Shown piece by piece: positions 2,653-43,415 of a stretch of 64,000 nt of DNA. Numbering within the stretch: position 1 is the first letter of the stretch; each line of letters begins with the position of its first letter. Both the position numbers and the translations under genes were made by a program. The notes under the pieces are model-generated. The model was not told where the DNA came from and searched no databases. It worked only from the letters and a program-made list of their open reading frames with translations. The stretch spans positions 26,648,957-26,712,956 of the forward strand of contig NC_056542.1 of the NCBI RefSeq assembly GCF_910596095.1, written 5' to 3'. The stretch is from Thunnus maccoyii. Taxonomy: Eukaryota > Chordata > Actinopteri > Scombriformes > Scombridae.

Positions 2653-3503
2653 GTTAGTGAAAGTGCATTATGAAGGGATCCTCTACTGGTCAGTATGAAT
2701 AGGAGGAATGATTACAGCAAGAAAAACTTATTTCAATTTTCATTTGGGCACCTGAGTATTGTTTTAAGACAGACCTGAAAAACTGTGAACCCATCCTTTA
2801 GTCTGTTTAGTTGTGTATAAGCCAAGTTTGATTTAAAATTCATTCATTTTGCAGGTATTTGAAAATAAGTCAAAGTATTGAAATGTTGATCTAATGATGT
2901 TGCTACATGAAAAGTCAGGTATCACAATTATCTAACATTAAACTTTAAGAAATAGAGCAAACTGTCAATCACAGCTGTCAATGTCTACATAGCAGACTTC
3001 AAAGCTACTATAAGTCTTCATATCATATTAACAGAGCAATCATTTCCAAAATGACCATCAGCACACTCATTAGAGGGCTCGAATTTAGCGATTGAGACCA
3101 TAATGACTGGTTAAAAACATTGCACTTGCATTGGCTTCAGCCTCAAGGCCTGGTAGTGGGCACTTGCCTAAATCCCAGAAGCTGTGGAACCAGACATGCC
3201 ACTGTTGTTGACACTGATGTTGTGGTCACCTGAACCAAGCACAGGGTTCAACAAGGTTTTTAGTAAAAGAGGCAGAGTGTGGCACAGTAAGGGATTTTTG
3301 TTATTGCACAATATACTGCATTGACTAAGACTGAAGTTATAAAGTTTATTGACCCTTGATTTTTTTTCAATGTAAATAGCCCACAGTTAATCATTAAATA
3401 CAGTTTTTCCTTGTTAGTGTCATTGCCATTATTGATTTATCACTCACAACATGATGAATTAATCTTGAGGTGTTTACGTGATGATGTAATTAAATAAATA
3501 ATC

Positions 3504-3561
<58 letters not shown>
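3504..3561. repeat. (GATA)n microsatellite upstream of copy 1
   Basis: Uninterrupted GATA repeats, flanked by AATC on both sides. Confidence 0.95.
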
Positions 3562-3563
<2 letters not shown>

Positions 3564-3860
3564 CTAAAAACATTTAGTGTTTCTTTTATGCATTAATTGA
3601 CAGTTTTCTTTATTCATCACACTGTTTAAAATGTTTCAGTCTGTTATATATATAACAGGGATTTATTAACAACTGGCAACATATGTCAGGACATCAGTGA
3701 TACTATTGCAGCAATGTTATGAGAAATTAAAAGCTTTAACATCAGCTGTCATTTTCATTTTGTATGTCAAACATGTTCAGTTCTTCATTATCTGTTACAT
3801 GAAGTTGCTTTGAAGTACAGATTAAGTAAAAGCATAAATGCATAAACAATGAGAAGAAAA

Positions 3861-3873
3861 GTTAATGATTGAT
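3861..3873 (+). promoter_or_regulatory. HNF1-like site, class A promoter (copy 1)
   Basis: GTTAATGATTGAT is close to the HNF1 consensus GTTAATNATTAAC. The same site is at 7439-7451 (copy 2), 26059-26071 (copy 8) and 36506-36518 (copy 11), with a one-base variant before copy 13. The other array copies carry a shortened sequence here (GTTAATATAAATG). HNF1 drives liver genes in vertebrates; binding here is inferred. Confidence 0.45.
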
Positions 3874-3926
3874 TTGATATTGAGGAACAGACAGTGAAAA
3901 CAAAGAACTTTCTATTTCCTATCTTT

Positions 3927-4029
3927 GGGAATTTCCTATAACCATCACTCAAGGAGTGATGCAAACCTTTTCCCGGAAGCAGGTACATGCTGTCAATAGT
4001 GAAGCAACAGATGCTCAAGCGAGTATAAA
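3927..4029 (+). promoter_or_regulatory. Core promoter of copy 1: kB site to TATA box
   Basis: GGGAATTTCC at 3927-3936 matches the NF-kB consensus GGGRNNYYCC. A C/EBP-like TGATGCAAA follows at about 3957-3965, and TATAAA lies at 4024-4029, about 106 bp before the ATG. NF-kB and C/EBP control of hepcidins is established in the family; here it is inferred from motifs only. The leader has no upstream ATG. Confidence 0.75.
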
Positions 4030-4134
4030 TACCAGCACATTTAGCACACTCAACATCAGACAGGTGAAAAGAGCTGACAAGATCAGGATCTGAAGAAATC
4101 TTGGTGCTACTTAAACCACTCACACACTCTGAAG

Positions 4135-4671
4135 ATGAAGACGTTCAGTGTTGCAATTGCAGTGGCCATCATGCTCACCTTCATCTTCCTTCAGGAGAGT
4201 TCTGCTGTCCCAGTCACCGGAGTGAGTAACAATATAATTAACATTAGTTCGATTTTCTTATTACATCTAATGTTTTGTCAGAAAGCTAAGATGTGATTCC
4301 TGCTGTAAACATACGGAATTCTTTAACAGGAACAAGAGCTGGAAGAAGCGATGAGCAATGACAGTCCAGTTGCTGTACATGAAGAGACATCTGTGGAATC
4401 ATGGAAGGTATGTTAAGTTTACTGAATGACTTTGGTCAAATACATTGAGCTAATTCAAATTTAAGTGGATGTGCTTTGCCTACAAAGTGCAATGATGCAC
4501 TCCACAGAAGAAGATGAGCAGAGTCAGAGATAATGCTGGAGATAAACACCTCGCTCATGTCTCTTTTCTTTCACACAGATGCCGTATAACAGACAGAAAC
4601 GTGGCATTAAGTGTCGCTTTTGCTGCGGCTGCTGCACCCCCGGTATCTGCGAAGTGTGCTGCAGATTCTGA
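4135..4671 (+). CDS. hamp2: Hepcidin copy 1 (hamp2-type antimicrobial peptide precursor)
   Basis: Exons are 4135-4221, 4330-4407 and 4579-4671, all phase 0 with GT-AG introns of 108 and 171 bp. The product is 85 residues. Residues 1-24 form a signal peptide (MKTFSVAIAVAIM, cut after SSA), and 25-63 an acidic propiece ending in RQKR, a furin site. The 22-residue mature peptide opens GIKCRFCCGCC and ends GICEVCCRF. Its eight cysteines at mature positions 4, 7, 8, 10, 11, 16, 19 and 20 give the hepcidin pattern of four disulfides. The QSHL-type N-terminus that lets hamp1 act on ferroportin is missing, so a secreted antimicrobial role is more likely than iron control. Odd feature: Ala36 in the propiece, where copies 2-13 have Val. 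Net charge of the mature peptide is about +2. The poly(A) signal is at 4856-4861. Confidence 0.96.
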
Positions 4672-7066
4672 AGATTCCTGCACCAACAACCACTAAATAA
4701 TCATTTATGTGCTTTTGTCTAAAATTGTATTTATGGCATGTAAACATGTAAAGATGTTACTAGGTGTGGTCATACTTTAGTTATTGTGCGCTGTAAATTC
4801 ATTATTGACATACAGGTATTACACTAAATATCTGCAAATACTGAAATGTGTGATCAATAAATTGTTAGGTTGCTATAATTAAGTGTTTCAAAGTGTTGTT
4901 TTAATTATGAATATTATTTACAATCATATTGCTACTCTTTCTCTACACTCAAATACTCTAAAATACACAATAGTGATTCCATCTATGGCTGTCTCATGAA
5001 AGCATACATCTGATATGTTTTTGCACACTTGATATGTTTCCTGCAATATTAGTAATTCTCTGACTCTTTTAACACAAATGGTACAAATATTTTCCTACAA
5101 TAACTGGCCTACTAGAAGTATTTTATTTTAGTTCTGTGTGTAGATCATTTAGATTTATTTTTCAAGTTTGGAAGCAAGCTTGATTTTCTAACTACACATG
5201 TTGACTGATAGAAGCCTTTATAAATCAATTCAACAAATTTAGCTAAGTATAAAGCAAGCCAACTACTGACGAGATAGAAAAAGGCGTTCTTGATTAGCTA
5301 GTGGCAGTAAGTAGCACCTTAATAAATTCCACAGTTTCACACATTAACAAAAAGCAAATCCTCTGATTGTTGATATCATTAATTAGCAAACTAACTGCTG
5401 TGATGTAGCAAGCTGATATCAGACTAAAGTTACAACACAGCTACTGTCAATAAGGGACACCAACCTGCAACAGCTCCATCAAGCTCTTGTTGCTCAATAT
5501 GCTGATGATGACAGCTGGGTCTGTTTCTTTTTGAAAAAGGTTTATGGCCATGACTGAAAGAGCAGTAACAATCTTGGTGGACAAACTAAGCAGACTTGAG
5601 GGCTAACAAGCTGCTGTTTTAGAGCAAAGAGTGCACCACTTCTGTTCTGTCAGGTGTTTAATCTGAAAATTCTGTTCTAAACTCTTCTGTCACAGCTAGA
5701 GAGAGATATAGAGACAGAGAGAGGTGAGTGGCAAATGGTGGCAAACAGCTGAGGCTGGTGGGAATGTCATTCATTTTGCAGGTATTTGATAATAAATCAA
5801 AGTATTGAAATGTTGACCTAATGATGTTGCTACATGAAAAGTCAGGTATCACAATTATCTAACATTAAACTTTAAGAAATATTGCAACAATAGTCCAACT
5901 CAGTGTGAGTCTTGATGCAGGGCAGAGCAGCAGATGAGCAAACTGTCAATCACAGCTGTCAATGTCTACATAGCAGACTTCAAAGCTACTATAAGTCTTC
6001 ATATCATATTAACAGAGCAATCATTTCCAAAATGACCATCAGCACACTCATTAGAGGGCTCGAATTTAGTGATTGAGACCATAATGACTGGTTAAAAACA
6101 TTGCACTTGCATTGGCTTCAGCCTCAAGGCCTGGTAGTTGCCACTTGCCTAAATCCCAGAAGCTGTGGAACCAGACATGGTACTGTTGTTGACACTGATG
6201 TTGTGGTCATTGTAACCAAGCACAGGGTTCAACAAGGTTTTCAGTAAAAGAGGCAGAGTGTGGTACAGTAAGGGATTTTTGTTATTGCACAATATACTGC
6301 ATTCACTAAGACTGACATTATAAAGTTTATTGACCCTTGATTTTTTTTTGATTTTTCAATGTAAATAGCCAACAATTAATCATTAAATACATTTTTTCCT
6401 TGTTAGTGTCATTGCCATTATTGATTTATCACTCACAACATGATGAATTAATCTTGAGGTGTTTAGGTGATGATGCAAATAAATAAATAAATAAATAAAT
6501 AGATAGATAGATAATCTAAAAACATTTTAGTGTTTATTTTATGCATTAATTGACAGTTTGCTTTATTCATCACACTGTTTAAAATGTTTCAGTGTGTTAT
6601 ATATATAACAGGGATTTATTAACAATTGGCAACATATGTCAGGACATCAGTGATACTATTGCAGCAATGTTATGAGAAATTAAAAGCTTTAACATCAGCT
6701 GTCATTTTCATTTTTTATGTTAAACATTCCCTGTCTTTAGGAATTTCTTATAACTATCAGTGATAAGTAATTTTTTTCATTTTCTTTATGACATGAACCA
6801 AGCAAGTGGTTCAGCAAGGTTTTCAGTAGAAGAGGCAGAGTGAAGTACAGTAAGGGATTTTTGTTATTGCACCAGGTACTGCATTGACTAAGACTGAAGT
6901 TATAAAGTTTATTGACCCTTGATTTTTTTTCAATGTAAATAGCCCACAGTTAATCATTAAATACAGTTTTTCCTTGTTAGTGTCATTGCCATTATTGATT
7001 TATCACTCACAACATGATGAATTAATCTTGAGGTGTTTACGTGATGATGTAATTAAATAAATAATC

Positions 7067-7140
<74 letters not shown>
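7067..7140. repeat. (GATA)n microsatellite upstream of copy 2
   Basis: Uninterrupted GATA tract at the position homologous to the tract upstream of copy 1. An AAAT tract with a few GATAs lies at about 6476-6513, in the duplicated spacer block. Confidence 0.95.
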
Positions 7141-7142
<2 letters not shown>

Positions 7143-7504
7143 CTAAAAACATTTTAGTGTTTATTTTATGCATTAATTGACAGTTTGCTTTATTCATCAC
7201 ACTGTTTAAAATGTTTCAGTATGTTATATATATAACAGGGATTTATTAACAACTGGCAACATATGTCAGGACATCAGTGATACTATTGCAGCAATGTTAT
7301 GAGAAATTAAAAGCTTTAACATCAGCTGTCATTTTCATTTTGTATGTCAAACGTTCAGTTCTTCATTATATGTTACATGAAGTTGCTTTGAAGTACAGAT
7401 TAAGTAAAAGCATAAATGCATAAACAATGAGAAGAAAAGTTAATGATTGATTTAATATTGAGGAACAGACAGTGAAAACAAAGAACTTTCTATTTCCTAT
7501 CTTT

Positions 7505-7607
7505 GGGAATTTCCTATAACCATCACTCAAGGAGTGATGCAAACCTTTTCCCGGAAGCAGGTACATGCTGTCAATAGTGAAGCAACAGATGCTCAAGCGA
7601 GTATAAA
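7505..7607 (+). promoter_or_regulatory. Core promoter of copy 2
   Basis: kB site 7505-7514, TATAAA 7602-7607. Class A, with the HNF1-like site at 7439-7451. Confidence 0.75.
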
Positions 7608-7712
7608 TACCAGCACATTTAGCACACTCAACATCAGACAGGTGAAAAGAGCTGACAAGATCAGGATCTGAAGAAATCTTGGTGCAACTTAAACCACTCA
7701 CACACTCTGAAG

Positions 7713-8249
7713 ATGAAGACGTTCAGTGTTGCAATTGCAGTGGCCATCATGCTCACCTTCATCTTCCTTCAGGAGAGTTCTGCTGTCCCAGTCACCGGAG
7801 TGAGTAACAATATAATAAACACTAGTTCGATTTTCTTATTACATCTAATGTTTTGTCAGAAAGCTAAGATGTGATTCCTGCTGTAAACATGCGGAATTCT
7901 TTAACAGGAACAAGAGCTGGAAGAAGTGATGAGCAATGACAGTCCAGTTGCTGTACATGAAGAGACATCTGTGGAATCATGGAAGGTATGTTAAGTTTAC
8001 TGAATGACTTTGGTCAAATACATTGAGCTAATTCAAATTTAAGTGGATGTGCTTTGCCTACAAAGTGCAATGATGCACTCCACAGAAGAAGATGAGCAGA
8101 GTCAGAGATAATGCTGGAGATGAACACCTCGCTCATGTCTCTTTTCTTTCACACAGATGCCGTATAACAGACAGAAACGTGGCATTAAGTGTCGCTTTTG
8201 CTGTGGCTGCTGCACCCCCGGTATCTGCGAAGTGTGCTGCAGATTCTGA
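7713..8249 (+). CDS. hamp2: Hepcidin copy 2
   Basis: Exons 7713-7799, 7908-7985 and 8157-8249; 85 residues. It differs from copy 1 at propiece residue 36 (Val), and the mature peptide is the same (Glu at mature position 17). Copies 3, 4, 5, 9 and 10 encode this same protein. The gene body belongs to the 2,938-bp repeat run, but the distal promoter is the older class A form, which places a recombination breakpoint just upstream of the kB site. Poly(A) signal 8434-8439. Confidence 0.96.
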
Positions 8250-10442
8250 AGATTCCTGCACCAACAACCACTAAATAATCATTTATGTGTTTTTGTCTAA
8301 AATTGTATTTATGGCATGTAAACATGTAAAGATGTTACTAGGTGTGGTCATACTTTAGTTATTGTGCGCTGTAAATTCATTATTGACATACAGGTATTAC
8401 ACTAAATATCTGCAAATACTGAAATGTGTGATCAATAAATTGTTAGGTTGCTATAATTAAGTGTTTCAAAGTGTTGTTTAATTATGAATATTATTGACAG
8501 TCATATTGCTACTCTTTCTCTACACTCAAATACTCTAAAATACACAATAGTGATTCCATCTATGGCTGTCTCATGAAAGCATACATCTGATATGTTTTTG
8601 CACACTTGATATGTTTCCTGCAATATCAGTAATTCTCTGACTCTTTTAACACAAATGGTACAAATATTTTCCTACAATAACTGGCCTACTAGAAGTATTT
8701 TATTTTAGTTGCTTGTGTAGATCATTTAGATTTATTTTTCAAGTTTGGAAGCAAGCTTGATTTTCTGACTACACATGTTGACTGATAGAAGCCTTTATAA
8801 ATCAATTCAACAAATTTAGCTAAGTATAAAGCGCGCCAACTACTGACGAGATAGAAAACGGCGTTCTTGATTAGCTAGTGGCATTAAGTAGCACCTTAAT
8901 AAATTCCACAGTTTCACACATTAACAAAAAACCCAAATCCTCTGATTGTTGATATCATTAAATAGCAAACTAACTGCTGTGATGTAGCAAGCTGATATCA
9001 GACTAAAGTTACAACACAGCTTCTGTCAATAAGGGACACCAACCTGCAACAGCTCCATCAAGCTCTTGCTGCTCAATATGCTGATGATGACAGCTGGGTC
9101 TGTTTCTTTTTGAAAAAGGTTTATGGCCATGACTGAAAGAGCAGTAACAATCTTGGTGGACAAACTAAGCAGACTTGAGGGCTAACAAGCTGCTGTTTTA
9201 GAGCAAAGAGTGCACCACTTCTGTTCTGTCAGGTGTTTAATCTGAAAATTCTGTTCTAAACTCTTCTGTCACAGCTAGAGAGAGATATAGAGACAGAGAG
9301 AGGTGAGTGGCAAATGGTGGCAAACAGCTGAGGCTGGTGGGAATGTCATTCATTTTGCAGGTATTTGATAATAAATCAAAGTATTGAAATGTTGACCTAA
9401 TGATGTTGCTACATGAAAAGTCAGGTATCACAATTATCTAACATTAAACTTTAAGAAATATTGCAACAATAGTCCAACTCAGTGTGAGTCTTGATGCAGG
9501 GCAGAGCAGCAGATGAGCAAACTGTCAATCACAGCTGTCAATGTCTACATAGCAGACTTCAAAGCTACTATAAGTCTTCATATCATATTAACAGAGCAAT
9601 CATTTCCAAAATGACCATCAGCACACTCATTAGAGGGCTCGAATTTAGTGATTGAGACCATAATGACTGGTTAAAAACATTGCACTTGCATTGGCTTCAG
9701 CCTCAAGGCCTGGTAGTGGGCACTTGCCTAAATCCCAGAAGCTGTGGAACCAGACATGGTACTGTTGTTGACACTGATGTTGTGGTCATTGTAACCAAGC
9801 ACAGTGTTCAACAAGGTTTTCAGTAAAAGAGGCAGAGTGTGGTACAGTAAGGGATTTTTGTTATTGCACAATATACTGCATTCACTAAGACTGACATTAT
9901 AAAGTTTATTGACCCTTGATTTTTTTTTGATTTTTCAATGTAAATAGCCAACAATTAATTATTAAATACATGTTTTCCTTGTTAGTATCATTGCCATTAT
10001 TGATTTATCACTCACAACATGATGAATTAATCTTGAGGTGTTTAGGTGATGATGCAAATAAATAAATAAATAAATAAATAGATAGATAGATAATCTAAAA
10101 ACATTTTAGTGTTTATTTTATGCATTAATTGACAGTTTGCTTTATTCATCACACTGTTTAAAATGTTTCAGTGTGTTATATATATAACAGGGATTTATTA
10201 ACAATTGGCAACATATGTCAGGACATCAGTGATACTATTGCAGCAATGTTATGAGAAATTAAAAGCTTTAACATCAGCTGTCATTTTCATTTTGTGTGTC
10301 AAACATGTTCAGTTCTTCATTATATGTTACATGAAGTTGCTTTGAAGTACAGATTAAGTAAAAGCATAAATGCATAAATGGCGAAAGGAAAAGTTAATAT
10401 AAATGTATTGTCAAAATAAAGAACTTTCTATTTCCTATCTTT

Positions 10443-10545
10443 GGGAATTTCCTATAACCATCACTCAAGGAGTGATGCAAACCTTTTCCCGGAAGCAGGT
10501 ACATGCTGTCAATAGTGAAGCAACAGATGCTCAAGCGAGTATAAA
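10443..10545 (+). promoter_or_regulatory. Core promoter of copy 3
   Basis: kB site 10443-10452, TATAAA 10540-10545. Class B: the HNF1-like site is replaced by GTTAATATAAATG at about 10392-10404. Confidence 0.72.
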
Positions 10546-10650
10546 TACCAGCACATTTAGCACACTCAACATCAGACAGGTGAAAAGAGCTGACAAGATC
10601 AGGATCTGAAGAAATCTTGGTGCAACTTAAACCACTCACACACTCTGAAG

Positions 10651-11187
10651 ATGAAGACGTTCAGTGTTGCAATTGCAGTGGCCATCATGCTCACCTTCAT
10701 CTTCCTTCAGGAGAGTTCTGCTGTCCCAGTCACCGGAGTGAGTAACAATATAATAAACACTAGTTCGATTTTCTTATTACATCTAATGTTTTGTCAGAAA
10801 GCTAAGATGTGATTCCTGCTGTAAACATGCGGAATTCTTTAACAGGAACAAGAGCTGGAAGAAGTGATGAGCAATGACAGTCCAGTTGCTGTACATGAAG
10901 AGACATCTGTGGAATCATGGAAGGTATGTTAAGTTTACTGAATGACTTTGGTCAAATACATTGAGCTAATTCAAATTTAAGTGGATGTGCTTTGCCTACA
11001 AAGTGCAATGATGCACTCCACAGAAGAAGATGAGCAGAGTCAGAGATAATGCTGGAGATGAACACCTCGCTCATGTCTCTTTTCTTTCACACAGATGCCG
11101 TATAACAGACAGAAACGTGGCATTAAGTGTCGCTTTTGCTGTGGCTGCTGCACCCCCGGTATCTGCGAAGTGTGCTGCAGATTCTGA
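10651..11187 (+). CDS. hamp2: Hepcidin copy 3
   Basis: Exons 10651-10737, 10846-10923 and 11095-11187. The 85-residue protein is identical to copies 2, 4 and 5, with Glu at mature position 17. It sits in the 2,938-bp repeat run. Because the whole unit looks identical to its two successors, reads could not easily tell them apart. Poly(A) signal 11372-11377. Confidence 0.95.
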
Positions 11188-13380
11188 AGATTCCTGCACC
11201 AACAACCACTAAATAATCATTTATGTGTTTTTGTCTAAAATTGTATTTATGGCATGTAAACATGTAAAGATGTTACTAGGTGTGGTCATACTTTAGTTAT
11301 TGTGCGCTGTAAATTCATTATTGACATACAGGTATTACACTAAATATCTGCAAATACTGAAATGTGTGATCAATAAATTGTTAGGTTGCTATAATTAAGT
11401 GTTTCAAAGTGTTGTTTAATTATGAATATTATTGACAGTCATATTGCTACTCTTTCTCTACACTCAAATACTCTAAAATACACAATAGTGATTCCATCTA
11501 TGGCTGTCTCATGAAAGCATACATCTGATATGTTTTTGCACACTTGATATGTTTCCTGCAATATCAGTAATTCTCTGACTCTTTTAACACAAATGGTACA
11601 AATATTTTCCTACAATAACTGGCCTACTAGAAGTATTTTATTTTAGTTGCTTGTGTAGATCATTTAGATTTATTTTTCAAGTTTGGAAGCAAGCTTGATT
11701 TTCTGACTACACATGTTGACTGATAGAAGCCTTTATAAATCAATTCAACAAATTTAGCTAAGTATAAAGCGCGCCAACTACTGACGAGATAGAAAACGGC
11801 GTTCTTGATTAGCTAGTGGCATTAAGTAGCACCTTAATAAATTCCACAGTTTCACACATTAACAAAAAACCCAAATCCTCTGATTGTTGATATCATTAAA
11901 TAGCAAACTAACTGCTGTGATGTAGCAAGCTGATATCAGACTAAAGTTACAACACAGCTTCTGTCAATAAGGGACACCAACCTGCAACAGCTCCATCAAG
12001 CTCTTGCTGCTCAATATGCTGATGATGACAGCTGGGTCTGTTTCTTTTTGAAAAAGGTTTATGGCCATGACTGAAAGAGCAGTAACAATCTTGGTGGACA
12101 AACTAAGCAGACTTGAGGGCTAACAAGCTGCTGTTTTAGAGCAAAGAGTGCACCACTTCTGTTCTGTCAGGTGTTTAATCTGAAAATTCTGTTCTAAACT
12201 CTTCTGTCACAGCTAGAGAGAGATATAGAGACAGAGAGAGGTGAGTGGCAAATGGTGGCAAACAGCTGAGGCTGGTGGGAATGTCATTCATTTTGCAGGT
12301 ATTTGATAATAAATCAAAGTATTGAAATGTTGACCTAATGATGTTGCTACATGAAAAGTCAGGTATCACAATTATCTAACATTAAACTTTAAGAAATATT
12401 GCAACAATAGTCCAACTCAGTGTGAGTCTTGATGCAGGGCAGAGCAGCAGATGAGCAAACTGTCAATCACAGCTGTCAATGTCTACATAGCAGACTTCAA
12501 AGCTACTATAAGTCTTCATATCATATTAACAGAGCAATCATTTCCAAAATGACCATCAGCACACTCATTAGAGGGCTCGAATTTAGTGATTGAGACCATA
12601 ATGACTGGTTAAAAACATTGCACTTGCATTGGCTTCAGCCTCAAGGCCTGGTAGTGGGCACTTGCCTAAATCCCAGAAGCTGTGGAACCAGACATGGTAC
12701 TGTTGTTGACACTGATGTTGTGGTCATTGTAACCAAGCACAGTGTTCAACAAGGTTTTCAGTAAAAGAGGCAGAGTGTGGTACAGTAAGGGATTTTTGTT
12801 ATTGCACAATATACTGCATTCACTAAGACTGACATTATAAAGTTTATTGACCCTTGATTTTTTTTTGATTTTTCAATGTAAATAGCCAACAATTAATTAT
12901 TAAATACATGTTTTCCTTGTTAGTATCATTGCCATTATTGATTTATCACTCACAACATGATGAATTAATCTTGAGGTGTTTAGGTGATGATGCAAATAAA
13001 TAAATAAATAAATAAATAGATAGATAGATAATCTAAAAACATTTTAGTGTTTATTTTATGCATTAATTGACAGTTTGCTTTATTCATCACACTGTTTAAA
13101 ATGTTTCAGTGTGTTATATATATAACAGGGATTTATTAACAATTGGCAACATATGTCAGGACATCAGTGATACTATTGCAGCAATGTTATGAGAAATTAA
13201 AAGCTTTAACATCAGCTGTCATTTTCATTTTGTGTGTCAAACATGTTCAGTTCTTCATTATATGTTACATGAAGTTGCTTTGAAGTACAGATTAAGTAAA
13301 AGCATAAATGCATAAATGGCGAAAGGAAAAGTTAATATAAATGTATTGTCAAAATAAAGAACTTTCTATTTCCTATCTTT

Positions 13381-13483
13381 GGGAATTTCCTATAACCATC
13401 ACTCAAGGAGTGATGCAAACCTTTTCCCGGAAGCAGGTACATGCTGTCAATAGTGAAGCAACAGATGCTCAAGCGAGTATAAA
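13381..13483 (+). promoter_or_regulatory. Core promoter of copy 4
   Basis: kB site 13381-13390, TATAAA 13478-13483. Class B. Confidence 0.72.
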
Positions 13484-13588
13484 TACCAGCACATTTAGCA
13501 CACTCAACATCAGACAGGTGAAAAGAGCTGACAAGATCAGGATCTGAAGAAATCTTGGTGCAACTTAAACCACTCACACACTCTGAAG

Positions 13589-16421: not shown

Positions 16422-16526
16422 TACCAGCACATTTAGCACACTCAACATCAGACAGGTGAAAAGAGCTGACAAGATCAGGATCTGAAGAAATCTTGGTGCA
16501 ACTTAAACCACTCACACACTCTGAAG

Positions 16527-29679: not shown

Positions 29680-29782
29680 GGGAATTTCCTATAACCATCA
29701 CTCAAGGAGTGATGCAAACCTTTTCCCAGAGGCAGGTACATGCTGTCAATAGTGAAGCAACAGATGCTCAAGCGAGTATAAA
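29680..29782 (+). promoter_or_regulatory. Core promoter of copy 9
   Basis: kB site 29680-29689, TATAAA 29777-29782. Class B, with CCCAGAGGCAGG between the two elements, where most copies read CCCGGAAGCAGG. Confidence 0.72.
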
Positions 29783-29886
29783 TACCAGCACATTTAGCAC
29801 ACTCAACATCAGACAGGTGAAAAGAGCTGACAAGATCAGGATCTGAAGAAATCTTGGTGCAACTTAACCACTCACACACTTTGAAG

Positions 29887-30423: not shown

Positions 30424-32818
30424 AGATTCCTGCACCAACAACCACTAAATAATCATTTATGTGTTTTTGTCTAAAATTGTATTTATGGCATGTAAACATG
30501 TAAAGATGTTACTAGGTGTGGTCATACTTTAGTTATTGTGCGCTGTAAATTCATTATTGACATACAGGTATTACACTAAATATCTGCAAATACTGAAATG
30601 TGTGATCAATAAATTGTTAGGTTGCTATAATTAAGTGTTTCAAAGTGTTGTTTAATTATGAATATTATTGACAGTCATATTGCTACTCTTTCTCTACACT
30701 CAAATACTCTAAAATACACAATAGTGATTCCATCTATGGCTGTCTCATGAAAGCATACATCTGATATGTTTTTGCACACTTGATATGTTTCCTGCAATAT
30801 TAGTAATTCTCTGACTCTTTTAACACAAATGGTACAAATATTTTCCTACAATAACTGGCCTACTAGAAGTATTTTATTTTAGTTCTGTGTGTAGATCATT
30901 TAGATTTATTTTTCAAGTTTGGAAGCAAGCTTGATTTCTGACTACACATGTTGACTGATAGAAGCCTTTATAAATCAATTCAACAAATTTAGCTAAGTAT
31001 AAAGTGCGCCAACTACTGATGAGATAGAAAAAGGCGTTCTTGATTAGCTAGTGGCATTAAGTAGCACCTTAATAAATTCCACAGTTTCACACATTAACAA
31101 AAAACCCAAATCCTCTGATTGTTGATATCATTAAATAGCAAACTAACTGCTGTGATGTAGCAAGCTGATATCAGACTAAAGTTACAACACAGCTTCTGTC
31201 AATAAGGGACACCAACCTGCAACAGCTCCATCAAGCTCTTGCTGCTCAATATGCTGATGATGACAGCTGGGTCTGTTTCTTTTTGAAAAAGGTTTATGGC
31301 CATGACTGAAAGAGCAGTAACAATCTTGGTGGACAAACTAAGCAGACTTGAGGGCTAACAAGCTGCTGTTTTAGAGCAAAGAGTGCACCACTTCTGTTCT
31401 GTCAGGTGTTTAATATGAAAATTCTGTTCTAAACTCTTTTGTCAAAGTTAGAGAGAGATATAGAGACAGAGAGAGGTGAGTGGCAAATGGTGGCAAACAG
31501 CTGAGGCTGGTGGGAATGTCATTCATTTTGCAGGTATTTGATAATAAATCAAAGTATTGAAATGTTGACCTAATGATGTTGCTACATGAAAAGTCAGGTA
31601 TCACAATTATCTAACATTAAACTTTAAGAAATATTGCAACAATAGTCCAACTCAGTGTGAGTCCTGATGCAGGGCAGAGCAGCAGATGAGCAAACTGTCA
31701 ATCACAGCTGTCAATGTCTACATAGCAGACTTCAAAGCTACTATAAGTCTTCATATCATATTAACAGAGCAATCATTTCCAAAATGACCATCAGCACACT
31801 CATTAGAGGGCTCGAATTTAGTGATTGAGACCATAATGACTGGTTAAAAACATTGCACTTGCATTGGCTTCAGCCTCAAGGCCTGGTAGTGGGCACTTGC
31901 CTAAATCCCAGAAGCTGTGGAACCAGACATGGTACTGTTGTTGACACTGTTGTTGTGGTCATTGTAACCAAGCACAGTGTTCAACAAGGTTTTCAGTAAA
32001 AGAGGCAGAGTGTGGTACAGTAAGGGATTTTTGTTATTGCACAATATACTGCATTCACTAAGACTGACATTATAAAGTTTATTGACCCTTGATTTTTTTT
32101 TGATTTTTCAATGTAAATAGCCAACAATTAATCATTAAATACAGTTTTTCCTTGTTAGTGTCATTGCCATTATTGATTTATCACTCACAACATGATGAAT
32201 TAATCTTGAGGTGTTTAGGTGATGATGCAAATAAATAAATAAATAAATAAATAGATAGATAGATAATCTAAAAACATTTTAGTGTTTATTTTATGCATTA
32301 ATTGACAGTTTGCTTTATTCATCACACTGTTTAAAATGTTTCAGTATGTTATATATATAACAGGGATTTATTAACAATTGGCAACATATGTCAGGACATC
32401 AGTGATACTATTGCAGCAATGTTATGAGAAATTAAAAGCTTTAACATCAGCTGTCATTTTCATTTTTTATGTTAAACATTCCCTGTCTTTAGGAATTTCT
32501 TATAACTATCAGTGATAAGTAATTTTTTTCATTTTCTTTATGACATGAACCAAGCAAGTGGTTCAGCAAGGTTTTCAGTAGAAGAGGCAGAGTGAAGTAC
32601 AGTAAGGGATTTTTGTTATTGCACCAGGTACTGCATTGACTAAGACTGAAGTTATAAAGTTTATTGACCCTTGATTTTTTTTCAATGTAAATAGCCAACA
32701 GTTAATCATTAAATACAGTTTTTCCTTGTTAGTGTCATTGCCATTATTGATTTATCACTCACAACATGATGAATTAATCTTGAGGTGTTTACGTGATGAT
32801 GTAATTAAATAAATAATC

Positions 32819-32904
<86 letters not shown>
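32819..32904. repeat. (GATA)n microsatellite upstream of copy 10
   Basis: The longest GATA tract in the window, about 86 bp. Confidence 0.95.
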
Positions 32905-32906
<2 letters not shown>

Positions 32907-33253
32907 CTAAAAACATTTAGTGTTTATTATATGCATTAATTGACAGTTTGCTTTATTCATCACACTGTTTAAAATGTTTCAGTGTGTTATATATATAACA
33001 GGGATTTATTAACAATTGGCAACATATGTCAGGACATCAGTGATACTATTGCAGCAATGTTATGAGAAATTAAAAGCTTGAACATCAGCTGTCATTTTCA
33101 TTTTGTGTGTCAAACATGTTCAGTTCTTCATTATATGTTACATGAAGTTGCTTTGAAGTACAGATTAAGTAAAAGCATAAATGCATAAATGGCGAAAGGA
33201 AAAGTTAATATAAATGTATTGTCAAAATAAAGAACTTCCTATTTCCTATCTTT

Positions 33254-33356
33254 GGGAATTTCCTATAACCATCACTCAAGGAGTGATGCAAACCTTTTCC
33301 CGGAAGCAGGTACATGCTGTCAATAGTGAAGCAACAGATGCTCAAGCGAGTATAAA
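33254..33356 (+). promoter_or_regulatory. Core promoter of copy 10
   Basis: kB site 33254-33263, TATAAA 33351-33356. Class B. Confidence 0.72.
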
Positions 33357-33461
33357 TACCAGCACATTTAGCACACTCAACATCAGACAGGTGAAAAGAG
33401 CTGACAAGATCAGGATCTGAAGAAATCTTGGTGCAACTTAAACCACTCACACACTCTGAAG

Positions 33462-33998
33462 ATGAAGACGTTCAGTGTTGCAATTGCAGTGGCCATCATG
33501 CTCACCTTCATCTTCCTTCAGGAGAGCTCTGCTGTCCCAGTCACCGGAGTGAGTAACAATATAATTAACATTAGTTCGATTTTCTTATTACATCTAATGT
33601 TTTGTCAGAAAGCTAAGATGTGATTCCTGCTGTAAACATGCGGAATTCTTTAACAGGAACAAGAGCTGGAAGAAGTGATGAGCAATGACAGTCCAGTTGC
33701 TGTACATGAAGAGACATCTGTGGAATCATGGAAGGTATGTTAAGTTTACTGAATGACTTTGGTCAAATACGTTGAGCTAATTCAAATTTAAGTGGATGTG
33801 CTTTGCCTACAAAGTGCAATGATGCACTCCACAGAAGAAGATGAGCAGAGTCAGAGATAATGCTGGAGATGAACATCTCGCTCATGTCTCTTTTCTTTCA
33901 CACAGATGCCGTATAACAGACAGAAACGTGGCATTAAGTGTCGCTTTTGCTGTGGCTGCTGCACCCCCGGTATCTGCGAAGTGTGCTGCAGATTCTGA
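33462..33998 (+). CDS. hamp2: Hepcidin copy 10
   Basis: Exons 33462-33548, 33657-33734 and 33906-33998. Same protein as copy 2, with a silent Ser codon change (AGC) near the signal cleavage site. Glu at mature 17, although its higher-order counterpart, copy 7, has Gly. Poly(A) signal 34183-34188. Confidence 0.95.
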
Positions 33999-36571
33999 AG
34001 ATTCCTGCACCAACAACCACTAAATAATCATTTATGTGTTTTTGTCTAAAATTGTATTTATGGCATGTAAACATGTAAAGATGTTACTAGGTGTGGTCAT
34101 ACTTTAGTTATTGTGCGCTGTAAATTCATTATTGACATACAGGTATTACACTAAATATCTGCAAATACTGAAATGTGTGATCAATAAATTGTTAGGTTGC
34201 TATAATTGAGTGTTTCAAAGTGTTGTTTAATTATGAATATTATTGACAGTCATATTGCTACTCTTTCTCTACACTCAAATACTCTAAAATACACAATAGT
34301 GATTCCATCTATGGCTGTCTCATGAAAGCATACATCTGATATGTTTTTGCACACTTGATATGTTTCCTGCAATATCAGTAATTCTCTGACTCTTTTAATA
34401 CAAATGGTACAAATATTTTCCTACAATAACTGGCCTACTAGAAGTATTTTATTTTAGTTCTGTGTGTAGATCATTTAGATTTATTTTTCAAGTTTGGAAG
34501 CAAGCTTGATTTCTGACTACACATGTTGACTGATAGAAGCCTTTATAAATCAATTCAACAAATTTAGCTAAGTATAAAGTGCGCCAACTACTGACGAGAT
34601 AGAAAACGGCGTTCTTGATTAGCTAGTAGCAGTAAGTAACACCTTAATAAATTCCACAGTTTCACACATTAACAAAAAACCCAAATCCTCTGATTGTTGA
34701 TATCATTAATTAGCAAACTAACTGCTGTGATGTAGCAAGCTGATATCAGACTAAAGTTACAACACAGCTTCTGTCAATAAGGGACACCAACCTGCAACAG
34801 CTCCATCAAGCTCTTGCTGCTCAATATGCTGATGATGACAGCTGGGTCTGTTTCTTTTTGAAAAAGGTTTATGGCCATGACTGAAAGAGCAGTAACAATC
34901 TTGGTGGACAAACTAAGCAGACTTGAGGGCTAACAAGCTGCTGTTTTAGAGCAAAGAGTGCACCACTTCTGTTCTGTCAGGTGTTTAATATGAAAATTCT
35001 GTTCTAAACTCTTTTGTCAAAGTTAGAGAGAGATATAGAGACAGAGAGAGGTGAGTGGCAAATGGTGGCAAACAGCTGAGGCTGGTGGGAATGTCATTCA
35101 TTTTGCAGGTATTTGATAATAAATCAAAGTATTGAAATGTTGACCTAATGATGTTTCTACATGAAAAGTCAGGTATCACAATTATCTAACATTAAACTTT
35201 AAGAAATATTGCAACAATAGTCCAACTCAGTGTGAGTCCTGATGCAGGGCAGAGCAGCAGATGAGCAAACTGTCAATCACAGCTGTCAATGTCTACATAG
35301 CAGACTTCAAAGCTACTATAAGTCTTCATATCATATTAACAGAGCAATCATTTCCAAAATGACCATCAGCACACTCATTAGAGGGCTCGAATTTAGTGAT
35401 TGAGACCATAATGACTGGTTAAAAACATTGCACTTGCATTGGCTTCAGCCTCAAGGCCTGGTAGTTGCCACTTGCCTAAATCCCAGAAGCTGTGGAACCA
35501 GACATGGTACTGTTGTTGACACTGTTGTTGTGGTCATTGTAACCAAGCACAGGGTTCAACAAGGTTTTCAGTAAAAGAGGCAGAGTGTGGTACAGTAAGG
35601 GATTTTTGTTATTGCACAACATACTTAGTCAATCATTAAATACTTTTTTCCATCTTAGTGTCATTGTCATTATTGACTTATTAACAACAGGCAACATATG
35701 TCAGGACATCAGTAATGTTATTGCAGTAATGTTATTAGGAAATAAAAGCTTTAACATCGGCTGTCATCTTCATTTTTTATGTTAAACATTCCCTATCTTT
35801 AGGAATTTCCTATAACTATCACTCAAGGAGTGATGCAAACCCTTCCCAGAGGCAGGTACATGCTGTCAGTGCTGATAAGTCATTTTTTCATTATCTTTAT
35901 GACATGAACCAAGCAAATGGTTCAGCAAGGTTGTCAGTAAAAGAAGCAGAGTGAAGTAGAGTAAGGGATTTTCGTTAATGCACCAGATACTGCATTCACT
36001 AAGACTGAAGTTATAAAGTTTATTGACCCTTGATTTTTTTTTTGATTTTTCAATGTAAATAGCCAACAATTAATTATTAAATACATTTTTTCCTTGTTAG
36101 TGTCATTGCCATTATTGATTTATCACTCACAACATGATGAATTAATCTTGAGGTGTTTAGGTGATGATGCAATTAAATAAATAAATAAATAAATAGATAG
36201 ATAGATAATCTAAAAACATTTTAGTGTTTATTTTATGCATTAATTGACAGTTTTCTTTATTCATCACACTGTTTAAAATGTTTCAGTATGTTATATATAT
36301 AACAGGGATTTATTAACAACTGGCAACATATGTCAGGACATCAGTGATACTATTGCAGCAATGTTACGAGAAATTAAAAGCTTGAACATCAGCTGTCATT
36401 TTCATTTTGTATGTCAAACGTTCAGTTCTTCATTATATGTTACATGAAGTTGCTTTGAAGTACAGATTAAGTAAAAGCATAAATGCATAAACAATGAGAA
36501 GAAAAGTTAATGATTGATTTGATATTGAGGAACAGACAGTCAAAACAAAGAACTTTCTATTTCCTATCTTT

Positions 36572-36674
36572 GGGAATTTCCTATAACCATCACTCAAGGA
36601 GTGATGCAAACCTTTTCCCGGAAGCAGGTACATGCTGTCAATAGTGAAGCAACAGATGCTCAAGTGAGTATAAA
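36572..36674 (+). promoter_or_regulatory. Core promoter of copy 11
   Basis: kB site 36572-36581, TATAAA 36669-36674, with GTGAG just 5' of the TATA where the other array copies have GCGAG. Class A, with the HNF1-like site at 36506-36518. Confidence 0.75.
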
Positions 36675-36779
36675 TACCAGCACATTTAGCACACTCAACA
36701 TCAGACAGGTGAAAAGAGCTGACAAGATCAGGATCTGAAGAAATCTTGGTGCAACTTAAACCACTCACACACTCTGAAG

Positions 36780-37314
36780 ATGAAGACGTTCAGTGTTGCA
36801 GTTGCAGTGGTCATCATGCTCACCTTCATCTTCCTTCAGGAGAGTTCTGCTGTCCCAGTCACCGGAGTGAGTAACAATAATTAACACTAGTTCGATTTTC
36901 TTATTACATCTAATGTTTTGTCAGAAAGCTAAGATGTGATTCCTGCTGTAAACATGTGGAATTCTTTAACAGGAACAAGAGCTGGAAGAAGTGATGAGCA
37001 ATGACAGTCCAGTTGCTGTACATGAAGAGACATCTGTGGAATCATGGAAGGTATGTTAAGTTTACTGAATGACTTTGGTCAAATACATTGAGCTAATTCA
37101 AATTTAAGTGGATGTGCTTTGCCTACAAAGTGCAATGATGCACTCCACAGAAGAAGATGAGCAGAGTCAGAGATAATGCTGGAGATGAACACCTCGCTCA
37201 TGTCTCTTTTCTTTCACACAGATGCCGTATAACAGACAGAAACGTGGCATTAAGTGTCGCTTTTGCTGCGGCTGCTGCACCCCCGGTATCTGCGGAGTGT
37301 GCTGCAGATTCTGA
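36780..37314 (+). CDS. hamp2: Hepcidin copy 11 (TH1-5-like mature peptide)
   Basis: Exons 36780-36866, 36973-37050 and 37222-37314; 85 residues. Signal peptide carries Val8 and Val11, and mature residue 17 is Gly. Intron 1 is 2 bp shorter than in the other copies (106 bp). Poly(A) signal 37499-37504. Confidence 0.95.
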
Positions 37315-39720
37315 AGATTCCTGCACCAACAACCACTAAATAATCATTTATGTGTTTTTGTCTAAAATTGTATTTATGGCATGTAAACATGTAAAGATGT
37401 TACTAGGTGTGGTCATACTTTAGTTATTGTGCACTGTAAATTCATTATTGACATACAGGTATTACACTAAATATCTGCAAATACTGAAATGTGTGATCAA
37501 TAAATTGTTAGGTTGCTATAATTAAGTGTTTCAAAGTGTTGTTTTAATTATGAATATTATTTACAATCATATTGCTACTCTTTCTCTACACTCAAATACT
37601 CTAAAATACACAATAGTGATTCCATCTATGGCTGTCTCATGAAAGCATACATCTGATATGTTTTTGCACACTTGATATGTTTCCTGCAATATTAGTAATT
37701 CTCTGACTCTTTTAACACAAATGGTACAAATATTTTCCTACAATAACTGGCCTACTAGAAGTATTTTATTTTAGTTCTGTGTGTAGATCATTTAGATTTA
37801 TTTTTCAAGTTTGGAAGCAAGCTTGACTTTCTGACTACACATGTTGACTGATAGAAGCCTTTATAAATCAATTCAACAAATTTAGCTAAGTATAAAGCAA
37901 GCCAACTACTGATGAGATAGAAAAAGGCGTTCTTGATTAGCTAGTGGCAGTAAGTAGCACCTTAATAAATTCCACAGTTTCACACATTAACAAAAAACCC
38001 AAATCCTCTGATTGTTGATATCATTAATTAGCAAACTAACTGCTGTGATGTAGCAAGCTGATATCAGACTAAAGTTACAACACAGCTACTGTCAATAAGG
38101 GACACCAACCTGCAACAGCTCCATCAAGCTCTTGCTGCTCAATATGCTGATGATGACAGCTGGGTCTGTTTCTTTTTGAAAAAGTTTTATGGCCATGACT
38201 GAAAGAGCAGTAACAATCTTGGTGGACAAACTAAGCAGACTTGAGGGCTAACAAGCTGCTGTTTTAGAGCAAAGAGTGCACCACTTCTGTTCTGTCAGGT
38301 GTTAAATCTGAAAATTCTGTTCTAAACTCTTCTGTCACAGCTAGAGAGAGATATAGAGACAGAGAGAGGTGAGTGGCAAATGGTGGCAAACAGCTGAGGC
38401 TGGTGGGAATGTCATTCATTTTGCAGGTATTTGATTATAAATCAAAGTATTGAAATGTTGACTTAATGATGTTGCTACATGAAAAGTCAGGTATCACAAT
38501 TATCTAACATTAAACTTTAAGAAATATTGCGACAATAGTCCAACTCAGTGTGAGTCTTGATGCAGGGCAGAGCAGCAGATGAGCAAACTGTCAATCACAG
38601 CTGTCAATGTCTACATAGCAGACTTCAAAGCTACTATAAGTCTTCATATCATATTAACAGAGCAATCATTTCCAAAATGACCATCAGCACACTCATTAGA
38701 GGGCTCGAATTTAGTGATTGAGACCATAATGACTGGTTAAAAACATTGCACTTGCATTGGCTTCAGCCTCAAGGCCTGGTAGTGGGCACTTGCCTAAATC
38801 CCAGAAGCTGTGGAACCAGACATGGTACTGTTGTTGACACTGATGTTGTGGTCATTGTAACCAAGCACAGGGTTCAACAAGGTTTTCAGTAAAAGAGGCA
38901 GAGTGTGGTACATTAAGGGATTTTTGTTATTGCACAATATACTGCATTCACTAAGACTGACATTATAAAGTTTATTGACCCTTGATTTTTTTTTGATTTT
39001 TCAATGTAAATAGCCAACAATTAATTATTAAATACATTTTTTCCTTGTTAGTGTCATTGCCATTATTGATTTATCACTCACAACATGATGAATTAATCTT
39101 GAGGTGTTTAGGTGATGATGCAAATAAATAAATAAATAAATAAATAGATAGATAGATAATCTAAAAACATTTTAGTGTTTATTTTATGCATTAATTGACA
39201 GTTTGCTTTATTCATCACACTGTTTAAAATGTTTCAGTGTGTTATATATATAACAGGGATTTATTAACAATTGGCAACATATGTCAGGACATCAGTGATA
39301 CTATTGCAGCAATGTTATGAGAAATTAAAAGCTTTAACATCAGCTGTCATTTTCATTTTTTATGTTAAACATTCCCTGTCTTTAGGAATTTCCTATAACT
39401 ATCACTGATAAGTCATGTTTTCATTTTCTTTATGACATGAACCAAGCAAGTGGTTCAGCAAGGTTATCAGTGAAGGAGGCAGAGTGAAGTACAGTAAGGA
39501 ATTTTTGTTATTGCACAATATACTGCATTCACTAAGACTGAAGTTATAAAGTTTATTGACCCTTGATTTTTTTTTTTGATTTTTCAATGTAAATAGCCAA
39601 CAGTTAATCATTGAATACAGTTTTTCCTTTTTAGTGTCATTGCCATTATTGATTTATAACTCTAAACATGATGAATTAATCTTGAGGTGTTTAAGTGATG
39701 ATGTAAATAAATAAATAATC

Positions 39721-39759
<39 letters not shown>
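39721..39759. repeat. (GATA)n microsatellite upstream of copy 12
   Basis: The shortest of the six GATA tracts, about 39 bp. Confidence 0.95.
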
Positions 39760-39760
<1 letters not shown>

Positions 39761-40112
39761 CTAAAAGCATTTAGTGTTTATTTTATGCATTGATTGACAG
39801 TTTGCTTTATTCATCACACTGTTTAAAATGTTTCAGTCTGTTATATATATATAACAGGGATTTATTAACAATTGGCAACATATGTCAGGACATCAGTGAT
39901 ACTATTGCAGCAATGTTATTATAAATTAAAAGCTTTAACAACATCAGCTGTCATTTTCATTTTGTATGTCAAACATGTTCAGTTCTTCATTATCTGTTAC
40001 ATGAAGTTGCTTTGAAGTACAGATTAAGTAAAAGCATAAATGCATAAATGGCGAAAGGAAAAGTTAATATAAATGTATTGTCAAAATAAAGAACTTTCTA
40101 TTTCCTATCTTT

Positions 40113-40215
40113 GGGAATTTCCTATAACCATCACTCAAGGAGTGATGCAAACCTTTTCCCAGAGGCAGGTACATGCTGTCAATAGTGAAGCAACAGATGC
40201 TCAAGCGAGTATAAA
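40113..40215 (+). promoter_or_regulatory. Core promoter of copy 12
   Basis: kB site 40113-40122, TATAAA 40210-40215. Class B, with the same CCCAGAGGCAGG variant as copy 9, as expected from the higher-order repeat. Confidence 0.72.
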
Positions 40216-40320
40216 TACCAGCACATTTAGCACACTCAACATCAGACAGGTGAAAAGAGCTGACAAGATCAGGATCTGAAGAAATCTTGGTGCAACTTAA
40301 ACCACTCACACACTCTGAAG

Positions 40321-40857
40321 ATGAAGACGTTCAGTGTTGCAATTGCAGTGGCCGTCATGCTCACCTTCATCTTCCTTCAGGAGAGTTCTGCTGTCCCAGT
40401 CACCGGAGTGAGTAACAATATAATAAACACTAGTTCGATTTTCTTATTGCATCTAATGTTTTGTCAGAAAGCTAAGATGTGATTCCTGCTGTAAACATGT
40501 GGAATTCTTTAACAGGAACAAGAGCTGGAAGAAGTGATGAGCAATGACAGTCCAGTTGCTGTACATGAAGAGACATCTGTGGAATCATGGAAGGTATGTT
40601 AAGTTTACTGAATGACTTTGGTCAAATACATTGAGCTAATTCAAATTTAAGTGGATGTGCTTTGCCTACAAAGTGCAATGATGCACTCCACAGAAGAAGA
40701 TGAGCAGAGTCAGAGATAATGCTGGAGATGAACACCTCGCTCATGTCTCTTTTCTTTCACACAGATGCCGTATAACAGACAGAAACGTGGCATTAAGTGT
40801 CGCTTTTGCTGCGGCTGCTGCACCCCCGGTATCTGCGGAGTGTGCTGCAGATTCTGA
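40321..40857 (+). CDS. hamp2: Hepcidin copy 12 (TH1-5-like mature peptide)
   Basis: Exons 40321-40407, 40516-40593 and 40765-40857; 85 residues. Val12 replaces Ile in the signal peptide, and Gly is at mature 17. It begins what would be a third higher-order block, cut short by the compact spacing to copy 13. Poly(A) signal 41042-41047. Confidence 0.95.
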
Positions 40858-42592
40858 AGATTCCTGCACCAACAACCACTAAATAATCATTTATGTGTTT
40901 TTGTCCAAAAATGTATTTATGGCATGTAAACATGTAAAGATGTTACTAGGTGTGGTCATACTTTAGTTATTGTGCGCTGTAAATTCATTATTGACATACA
41001 GGTATTACACTAAATATCTGCAAATACTGAAATGTGTGATCAATAAATTGTTACGTTGCTATAATTAAGTGTTTCAAAGTGTTGTTTTAATTATGAATAT
41101 TATTGACAGTCATATTGCTACTCTTTCTCTACACTCAAATACTCTAAAATACACAATAGTGATTCCATCTATGGCTGTCTCATGAAAGCATACATCTGAT
41201 ATGTTTTTGCACACTTGATATGTTTCCTGCAATATTAGTAATTCTCTGACTCTTTTAACACAAATGGTACAAATATTTTCCTACAATAACTGGCCTACTA
41301 GAAGTATTTTATTTTAGTTCTGTGTGTAGATCATTTAGATTTATTTTTCAAGTTTGGAAGCAAGCTTGATTTTCTAACTACACATGTTGACTGATAGAAG
41401 CCTTTATAAATCAATTCAACAAATTTAGCTAAGTATAAAGCAAGCCAACTACTGATGAGATAGAAAAAGGCGTTCTTGATTAGCTAGTGGCAGTAAGTAA
41501 CACCTTAATAAATTCCACAGTTTCACACATTAACAAAAAGCAAATCCTCTGATTGTTGATATCATTAAATAGCAAACTAACTGCTGTGATGTAACAAACT
41601 GATATCAGACTAAAGTTACAACACAGCTACTGTCAATAAGGGACACCAACCTGCAACAGCTCCATCAAGCTCTTGCTGCTCAATATGCTGATGATGACAG
41701 CTGGGTCTGTTTCTTTTTGAAAAAGGTCTATGGCCATGATTGAAAGAGCAGTAACAATCTTGGTGGACAAACTAAGCAGACTTGAGGGCTAACAAGCTGC
41801 TGTTTTAGAGCAAAGAGTGCACCACTTCTGTTCTGTCAGGTGTTTAATCTGAAAATTCTGTTCTAAACTCTTCTGTCACAGCTAGAGAGAGATATAGAGA
41901 CAGAGAGAGGTGAGTGGCAAATGGTGGCAAACAGCTGAGGCTGGTGGGAATGTCATTCATTTTGCAGGTATTTGATAATAAATCAAAATATTAAAATGTT
42001 GACCTAATGATGTTGTTACATAAAAAGTATCACAATTATCTAACATTAAACTTTAAGAAATATTGCGACAATAGTCCAACTCAGTGTGAGTCCTGATGCA
42101 GGGCAGAGCAGCAGATGAGCAAACTGTCAATCACAGCTGTCAATGTCTACATAGCAGACTTCAAAGCTACTATAAGTCTTCATATCATATTAACAGAGCA
42201 ATCATTTCCAAAATGACCATCAGCACACTCATTAGAGGGCTCGAATTTAGTGATTGAGACCATAATGACTGGTTAAAAACATTGCACTTGCATTGGCTTC
42301 AGCCTCAAGGCCTGGTAGTTGCCACTTGCCTAAATCCCAGAAGCTGTGGAACCAGACATGGTACTGTTGTTGACACTGATGTTGTGGTCATTGTAACCAA
42401 GCACAGTGTTCAAGAAGGTTTTCAGACAACATGTCAAACATGTTCAGTTCTTCATTATATGTCACATGAAGTTGCTTTGAAGTACAGATTAAGTAAAAGC
42501 ATAAATGCATAAACAATGAGAGGAAAAGTTGATGATTGATTTGATATTGAGGAGCAGACAGTCAAATAAAGAACTTTCTATTTCCTATCTTT

Positions 42593-42695
42593 GGGAATTT
42601 CCCATAACCATCACTCAAGGAGTGATGCAAACCTTTTCCCAGAAGCAGGTACATGCTGTCAATAGTGAAGCAACAGATGCTCAAGCGAGTATAAA
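42593..42695 (+). promoter_or_regulatory. Core promoter of copy 13
   Basis: kB site 42593-42602 (GGGAATTTCC, followed by a further C), TATAAA 42690-42695. Class A-like, with the HNF1-like site altered to GTTGATGATTGAT. The distal spacer is heavily shortened. Confidence 0.72.
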
Positions 42696-42800
42696 TACCA
42701 GCACATTTAGCACACTCAACATCAGACAGGTGAAAAGAGCTGACAAGATCAGGATCTGAAGAAATCTTGGTGCAACTTAAACCACTCACACACTCTGAAG

Positions 42801-43262
42801 ATGAAGACGTTCAGTGTTGCAGTTGCAGTGGCCATCATGCTCACCTTCATTTTCCTTCAGGAGAGCTCTGCTGTCCCAGTCACCGGAGTGAGTAACAATA
42901 TAATAAACACTAGTTCGATTTTCTTATTGCATCTAATGTTTTGTCAGAAAGCTAAGATGTGATTCCTGCTGTAAACATGTGAAATTCTTTAACAGGAACA
43001 AGAGCTGGAAGAAGTGATGAGCAATGACAGTCCAGTTGCTGTACATGAAGAGACATCTGTGGAATCATGGAAGGTATGTTAAGTTTACTGAACAGATTAT
43101 GAAAAGCAAATTACCATAAGATCATTCAAAGGTGGACCAACAGCTTGCTCATGTTCGTCTTTCACACAGATGCCGTATAACAGACAGAAACGTGGCCTTA
43201 AGTGTCGTGTTTGCTGTGGCTGCTGCATCCCTGGTGTCTGCGGAGTGTGCTGCACAATCTGA
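42801..43262 (+). CDS. hamp2: Hepcidin copy 13, mosaic gene with divergent mature peptide
   Basis: Exons 42801-42887, 42996-43073 and 43170-43262; 85 residues. Exons 1 and 2 are of the array type (exon 2 identical to copy 2). Exon 3 encodes a different 22-residue peptide, opening GLKCRVCCGCC and ending IPGVCGVCCTI. All eight cysteines are kept, but the usual C-terminal Arg-Phe is lost and net charge is about +2. Intron 2 is only 96 bp and unlike that of the array after its first 20 bases. The 3' UTR and poly(A) signal (43410-43415) match the older genes 14-15 better than copies 1-12. It reads as a recombinant between an array gene and an older downstream gene, or as the ancestral edge copy whose 5' half was converted. 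Confidence 0.95.
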
Positions 43263-43415
43263 GGACTCCTGCACCAACAACCACTAAATAATCATTTATG
43301 TGTTTTTGTGTCTTAATTCAATTATACTACTTTGTATTTAGGGCATGTAAAATTAATTTTTACTAGATTTGGTCATGCTGTACTTCATTTTTGCACAGTG
43401 TATTATCACAATAAA

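Follow-up and report, generated by a model that had tools for sequence, protein, structure and literature searches.

Thirteen hepcidin genes in tandem

We analyzed a 64,000-nucleotide stretch of the Thunnus maccoyii genome (C10:26648957-26712956, hereafter "the window"), in which 13 hamp2-type hepcidin genes lie head to tail on the plus strand between positions 4135 and 43262, their start codons running from 4135 to 42801 (Table 1). All 13 gene models combine an ATG, AG acceptors, and GT donors with three exons, two introns, and an 85-amino acid frame, and each is equipped with a single kB-like site ~208 bases 5′ of the ATG, a TATAAAT ~111 bases 5′ of the ATG, and an AATAAA ≤260 bases past the stop. 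Across copies 1–12, the kB-like sites are invariant. An earlier note on this DNA had described a thirteen-gene array whose copies 1–12 are intact three-exon genes with their own kB/TATA promoter and poly(A) signal, and the gene models agree with that description. The interval proposed there (2838..43320) does hold the array, but the hepcidin cluster extends past both of its ends, with four genes on the 3′ side and relics on the 5′ side.

Copies 2–12 are 98.2–99.1% identical to copy 1 over the gene body (1017 bases), and 13 gene-length repeats at 97–99% exclude a chance origin. Units, measured from one promoter start to the next, span 2480–3578 bp. Over 2938 bases, units 3 and 4 do not differ, so that 11 of the 12 units are distinct, and an exact self-match of 6,876 bases at an offset of 2938 covers units 2–4 together with the gene of unit 5. 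Units 7–9 measure 3318, 3554, and 3575 bp, and units 10–12 measure 3318, 3541, and 2480 bp. The spacers before genes 2, 7, 9, and 10, i.e., those of the long units, display a tandem duplication of ~620–640 bases from the pre-gene segment, accompanied by AAAT and TAGA microsatellites; an extra promoter fragment is seen in units 7 and 10 (25341–25421 and 35788–35868, 91%).

Part of the array might be an assembly artefact, i.e., haplotypes joined in tandem or identical units miscounted, as the identity of units 3 and 4 and the similar lengths of units 7–9 and 10–12 could suggest. We consider this very unlikely given the 11 distinct units, the lack of any N in the window, and a contig of 34.9 Mb. 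Genome searches covered the 782 Mb assembly (54 contigs) and scored the best candidates only, so that all counts are lower bounds: at least 12 spacers were recovered in full length, every one of them in the array, along with a single 49-base fragment upstream, and among the gene-body matches listed 29 of 29 were on C10. Joined haplotypes can be rejected, since the block of units 7–9 does not match units 10–12 uniformly along the alignment, unit 8 differs by 0.8% from unit 1 vs. 1.6% from unit 11, and unit 9 by 0.75% from units 3, 4, and 5 vs. 1.9% from unit 12. Within the near-identical units 2–5, however, the number of units may be miscounted. A mobile element as carrier is not supported, as no full spacer copies were found elsewhere (no transposon library was run), and Rfam gave no match in the window.

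Mature peptides and uniformity of the unit

The mature peptide of copies 1–12 is GIKCRFCCGCCTPGIC[E/G]VCCRF, with Glu at residue 17 in copies 1–5, 8, 9, and 10 (8/12) and Gly in copies 6, 7, 11, and 12 (4/12), i.e., two peptides that differ at this residue only, as the earlier note had it. Its wording that these copies encode almost one peptide is accurate for the mature part, but the precursors also vary at codons 7, 8, 11, 12, and 36. The Glu17 form, the Gly17 form, and the mature peptide of copy 13 (GLKCRVCCGCCIPGVCGVCCTI) all have eight cysteines after the dibasic RXXR-type site RQKR and score 57.8, 64.4, and 54.5 bits, respectively, against the Pfam hepcidin profile PF06446, for which the curated cut-off is 27 bits. 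The precursor N-terminus looks hydrophobic, while the mature N-terminus of the array peptides, GIKCRF, is of the hamp2 type, without the N-terminal QSH(L/I)S of hamp1, the iron-regulating hepcidin. Letter for letter, the Gly17 peptide is identical to tilapia TH1-5, which the available text of PMC4613332 presents as one of three isoforms, with reported antimicrobial activity; here, four genes encode it.

Homogeneity is not limited to the peptide but extends to the whole 2.5–3.6 kb unit. Mean pairwise differences among copies 1–12 amount to 1.1%, 0.2%, and 1.1% for exons 1, 2, and 3, respectively, and to 1.7% and 0.4% for introns 1 and 2. The corresponding values are 0.9% for the promoter and 5′ untranslated region (UTR), 0.6% for the 3′ UTR, and 1.4% for the next 0.9 kb. 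Across gap-free columns, 8 of 258 coding sites are variable vs. 75 of 2077 non-coding sites (Fisher p = 0.86), and introns alone, with 8 of 277, vary like coding sequence (p = 1.0); coding sequence is thus under no excess constraint. The coding changes include six non-synonymous and two synonymous ones, where 2.1 synonymous of eight would be expected without selection, and the probability of 12 intact frames under neutrality is 0.30. For these three reasons, the near-identity of the peptides is not evidence for selection on the peptide: the DNA is uniform, and therefore the peptide is too. The same tests lead us to reject purifying selection as the cause of uniformity for the period since homogenization.

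Selection could also keep the copies alike because a high dosage of one peptide is useful. Intact frames, splice sites, promoters, and poly(A) signals in 12 of 12 copies and the invariant kB-like sites would be consistent with this, whereas the similar variation of coding and non-coding sites, the 6:2 ratio, and the probability of 0.30 for 12 intact frames under neutrality all argue against it. Since the constraint tests cover the time since the last homogenization and not copy number, we retain dosage as a fair hypothesis, at clearly less than even odds, which the sequence neither supports nor refutes.

That fish hamp2 expansions are known, as the earlier note stated, is borne out by two species. 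For gilthead seabream, the available text of PMC11043163, in which a 2022 study by Serna-Duque et al. titled "Massive gene expansion of hepcidin" is cited, lists hamp2.1 to hamp2.14 beside one hamp1, the 14 hamp2 genes yielding 10 mature peptides, one shared by hamp2.7/9/11/13 and one by hamp2.3/4. As in the array, many hamp2 genes are present and several encode one mature peptide, but seabream has at most four genes per peptide, while here 12 genes encode two peptides that are one residue apart. For large yellow croaker, the accessible part of PMC6240063 describes six functionally divergent hepcidin genes, a record at that time. Three-exon hamp2 genes and eight-cysteine peptides are common to croaker and the array, and HAMP2-1 and HAMP2-4 share a mature peptide (two of five hamp2 genes); unlike in the array, there are six genes in all and their functions diverge. 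The array is more uniform than the seabream or croaker sets, but is of the same kind. Fish hamp2 peptides are described as diversifying under positive selection in the available portions of PMC3325200 and PMC6240063, and the array would represent the opposite, i.e., a dozen genes in which DNA exchange limits the outcome to one or two peptides.

Probable exchange among copies and the hybrid edge

Variable sites form scrambled patterns among the copies. For 44 informative sites, 59% of site pairs are incompatible, i.e., display all four combinations, and the Hudson–Kaplan minimum number of exchanges (Rm) is 19. Compatibility between neighboring sites exceeds that in 5000 random orderings (PHI-type p = 0.0002, 12 copies), which also holds without copies 3–4 and without copies 3–5, as well as for the gene body alone (p = 0.0012, ten copies), and incompatibility between sites grows with distance along the unit. 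Even codons 71 (C/T) and 80 (A/G) of exon 3, only 26 bases apart, occur in all four combinations in copies 1–12. When each unit is painted by its nearest copy, the closest partner switches along the unit, yielding a mosaic: unit 7 equals units 3–5 over the first stretch of the alignment, unit 6 near columns 800–1100 and 1200–1500, and unit 10 in most alignment windows from column 2400 on. Given these incompatible, scrambled sites, we conclude that ectopic exchange has shaped the array. Outside units 2–5, the pattern reads as many short, old exchanges rather than few long recent ones.

The right edge of the array falls inside a gene. The match of copy 13 to the array is 97% up to 43092, a position within intron 2, and 80% from 43139 onward; compared to copy 12, it shows 4/87 differences in exon 1, 0/78 in exon 2, and 9/93 in exon 3. 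As a hybrid that follows the array as far as intron 2 and an older hepcidin thereafter, copy 13 illustrates how such arrays can also generate new variants at their edge. Together with the clustered incompatible sites (Rm and PHI-type test) and the non-uniform match between units 7–9 and 10–12, this hybrid lends support to concerted evolution, one of the explanations that the earlier note had put forward. Exchange may also be ongoing, judging from the near-identity of units 2–5.

Several points weigh against a history of exchange. Of 66 pairs in a GENECONV-like pairwise run test, 17 reached p < 0.05 and just two withstood Bonferroni correction; these two (2–3 and 2–4) represent whole-unit near-identity, and without copies 3 and 4 none of 45 pairs is significant. 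Recurrent mutation could yield some of the incompatible patterns, but not their clustering, and the evidence comes from one individual's assembly. The mostly non-significant run tests would also be expected from a very recent burst of plain duplications with little or no later exchange, as would the long exact self-match. Such a burst is the true description of units 2–5, but not of the whole array, for which we judge it improbable: most informative site pairs fit no single tree, and their incompatibility rises with distance.

Taken together, our preferred explanation, to which we assign a probability of about 0.75, is amplification of a unit followed by mixing through exchange, with a hybrid edge and a peptide released at RQKR. 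Specifically, a ~3 kb unit comprising one hamp2-type hepcidin gene and its own promoter would have been amplified head to tail to twelve units, presumably by unequal crossing-over, after which gene conversion or additional unequal exchange would have reshuffled the units. An exchange at the right edge would have joined the array to an older hepcidin, producing hybrid copy 13. The genes are predicted to encode a secreted prepropeptide from which cleavage at RQKR frees a 22-residue, eight-cysteine antimicrobial peptide, i.e., TH1-5 from four copies and the Glu17 version from eight. Expression would probably be NF-kB-responsive and located in the liver, and more copies may lead to more peptide, which might be advantageous. 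The array lends itself to asking, as a natural experiment, whether defence or iron handling responds to the number of hepcidin copies rather than to peptide variety, and how a single substitution at a conserved position comes to spread from copy to copy. A literature search combining hepcidin with gene conversion or concerted evolution returned no hepcidin paper among the matches listed; as these matches are limited, a link between hepcidin genes and conversion cannot be called unpublished.

Residue 17 and hepcidins outside the array

What was least expected of the array is that most copies have Glu17 where glycine is conserved. Glycine occupies this place in copies 6, 7, 11, 12, and 13, in genes 14, 15, and 17 (Table 1), in an extra exon 3 beyond gene 15, in hamp1, and in a relic upstream of the window, while gene 16 has Arg. 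It is also found in all three hepcidin sequences matched in PDB (a fourth match is a defensin) and in five of five croaker peptides in the available text of PMC6240063. In the Pfam profile, Glu at residue 17 costs 6.6 bits; among eight places tested, only Phe6 is costlier (7.5), the others reaching ≤3.3. On the basis of these comparisons, Glu17 is probably derived, yet it is present in 8 of the 12 copies. The codon change is G to A, and GC-biased conversion would therefore not favor it.

With Glu17, a glycine conserved in the hepcidin core is lost and the net charge falls from +3 to +2. According to the accessible part of PMC6240063, inhibitory concentrations in croaker move from 4–16 to 0.25–1 µM with a single Arg/Gly difference at a different position, so that one residue can matter. 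The array could be in the course of conversion from ancestral TH1-5 to Glu17, which would have spread to 8 of 12 copies because its function differs. We regard this as a long shot; if true, the Glu17 form might, for example, serve antiviral defence, immune signalling, or receptor binding instead of killing via the membrane. A literature search, with most subscription journals outside its reach, found no paper with CEVCC-type strings and no Glu17 version.

Signal exons were detected at least 18 times in the assembly, 17 of them in the window and one at C10:9908381, ~16.7 Mb from the array. The latter belongs to hamp1, whose mature peptide QSHLSLCHWCCNCCKGNRGCGFCCRF begins with QSHLSLCHWCC.

Table 1 Hepcidin genes, array, and relic in the window (positions within the 64,000 nucleotides).
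Feature	Positions	Strand	Remarks
Tandem array	2838..43092	+	12 full units between a pre-gene segment and the 5′ part of copy 13; left edge from sequence, right edge = end of 97% match, intron 2 of copy 13
Hepcidin copy 1	4135..4671	+	Three exons, Glu17
Hepcidin copy 2	7713..8249	+	Glu17
Hepcidin copy 3	10651..11187	+	Glu17, unit identical to copy 4
Hepcidin copy 4	13589..14125	+	Glu17, unit identical to copy 3
Hepcidin copy 5	16527..17063	+	Glu17
Hepcidin copy 6	19458..19994	+	Gly17
Hepcidin copy 7	23015..23551	+	Gly17
Hepcidin copy 8	26333..26869	+	Glu17
Hepcidin copy 9	29887..30423	+	Glu17
Hepcidin copy 10	33462..33998	+	Glu17
Hepcidin copy 11	36780..37314	+	Gly17
Hepcidin copy 12	40321..40857	+	Gly17
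Hepcidin copy 13	42801..43262	+	Hybrid; exons 1–2 array-like, exon 3 older
Hepcidin gene 14	44400..45119	+	Mature peptide GIKCRFCCSCCRNRRAYCGLCCKF; two exon-2-like exons, either alternative or additional
Hepcidin gene 15	47974..48693	+	Mature peptide same as gene 14 (GIKCRFCCSCCRNRRAYCGLCCKF)
Hepcidin-like gene 16	58281..58715	+	6 Cys
Hepcidin-like gene 17	61558..62518	+	7 Cys
Relic	56..295	+	Promoter-like stretch 56–151 beside hepcidin 3′UTR-like stretch 189–295

Genes 14 and 15 each contain two in-frame exon-2-like exons (at 44588–44890 and 48162–48464, respectively), and the precursor could therefore be spliced three ways. A partial hepcidin duplicate lies 3′ of gene 15 (48720–49054), with IQKR replacing RQKR and an extra exon 3 (48959–49054) that encodes seven cysteines. 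Gene 16 joins a hepcidin signal exon and RQKR to a 19-residue, six-cysteine mature peptide, GLYCGRCCDNGVCRKCCYA, which Pfam did not recognize as a hepcidin at E 0.01. In gene 17, exon 1 joins exon 3 in frame, and we could find no exon 2. The relic upstream of the window (L022:1719-2114) consists of hepcidin exons 2–3 with the cleavage site RQKC, and positions 1–723 of the window, which include the promoter/3′ UTR relic, are 87% like L022:3064-3787. Between hepcidins 15 and 16 lies a protein-kinase gene (53540–56782; Pkinase, 128.6 bits) with a long, repetitive, acidic Ser/Thr-rich tail and a run of cysteines at its end.

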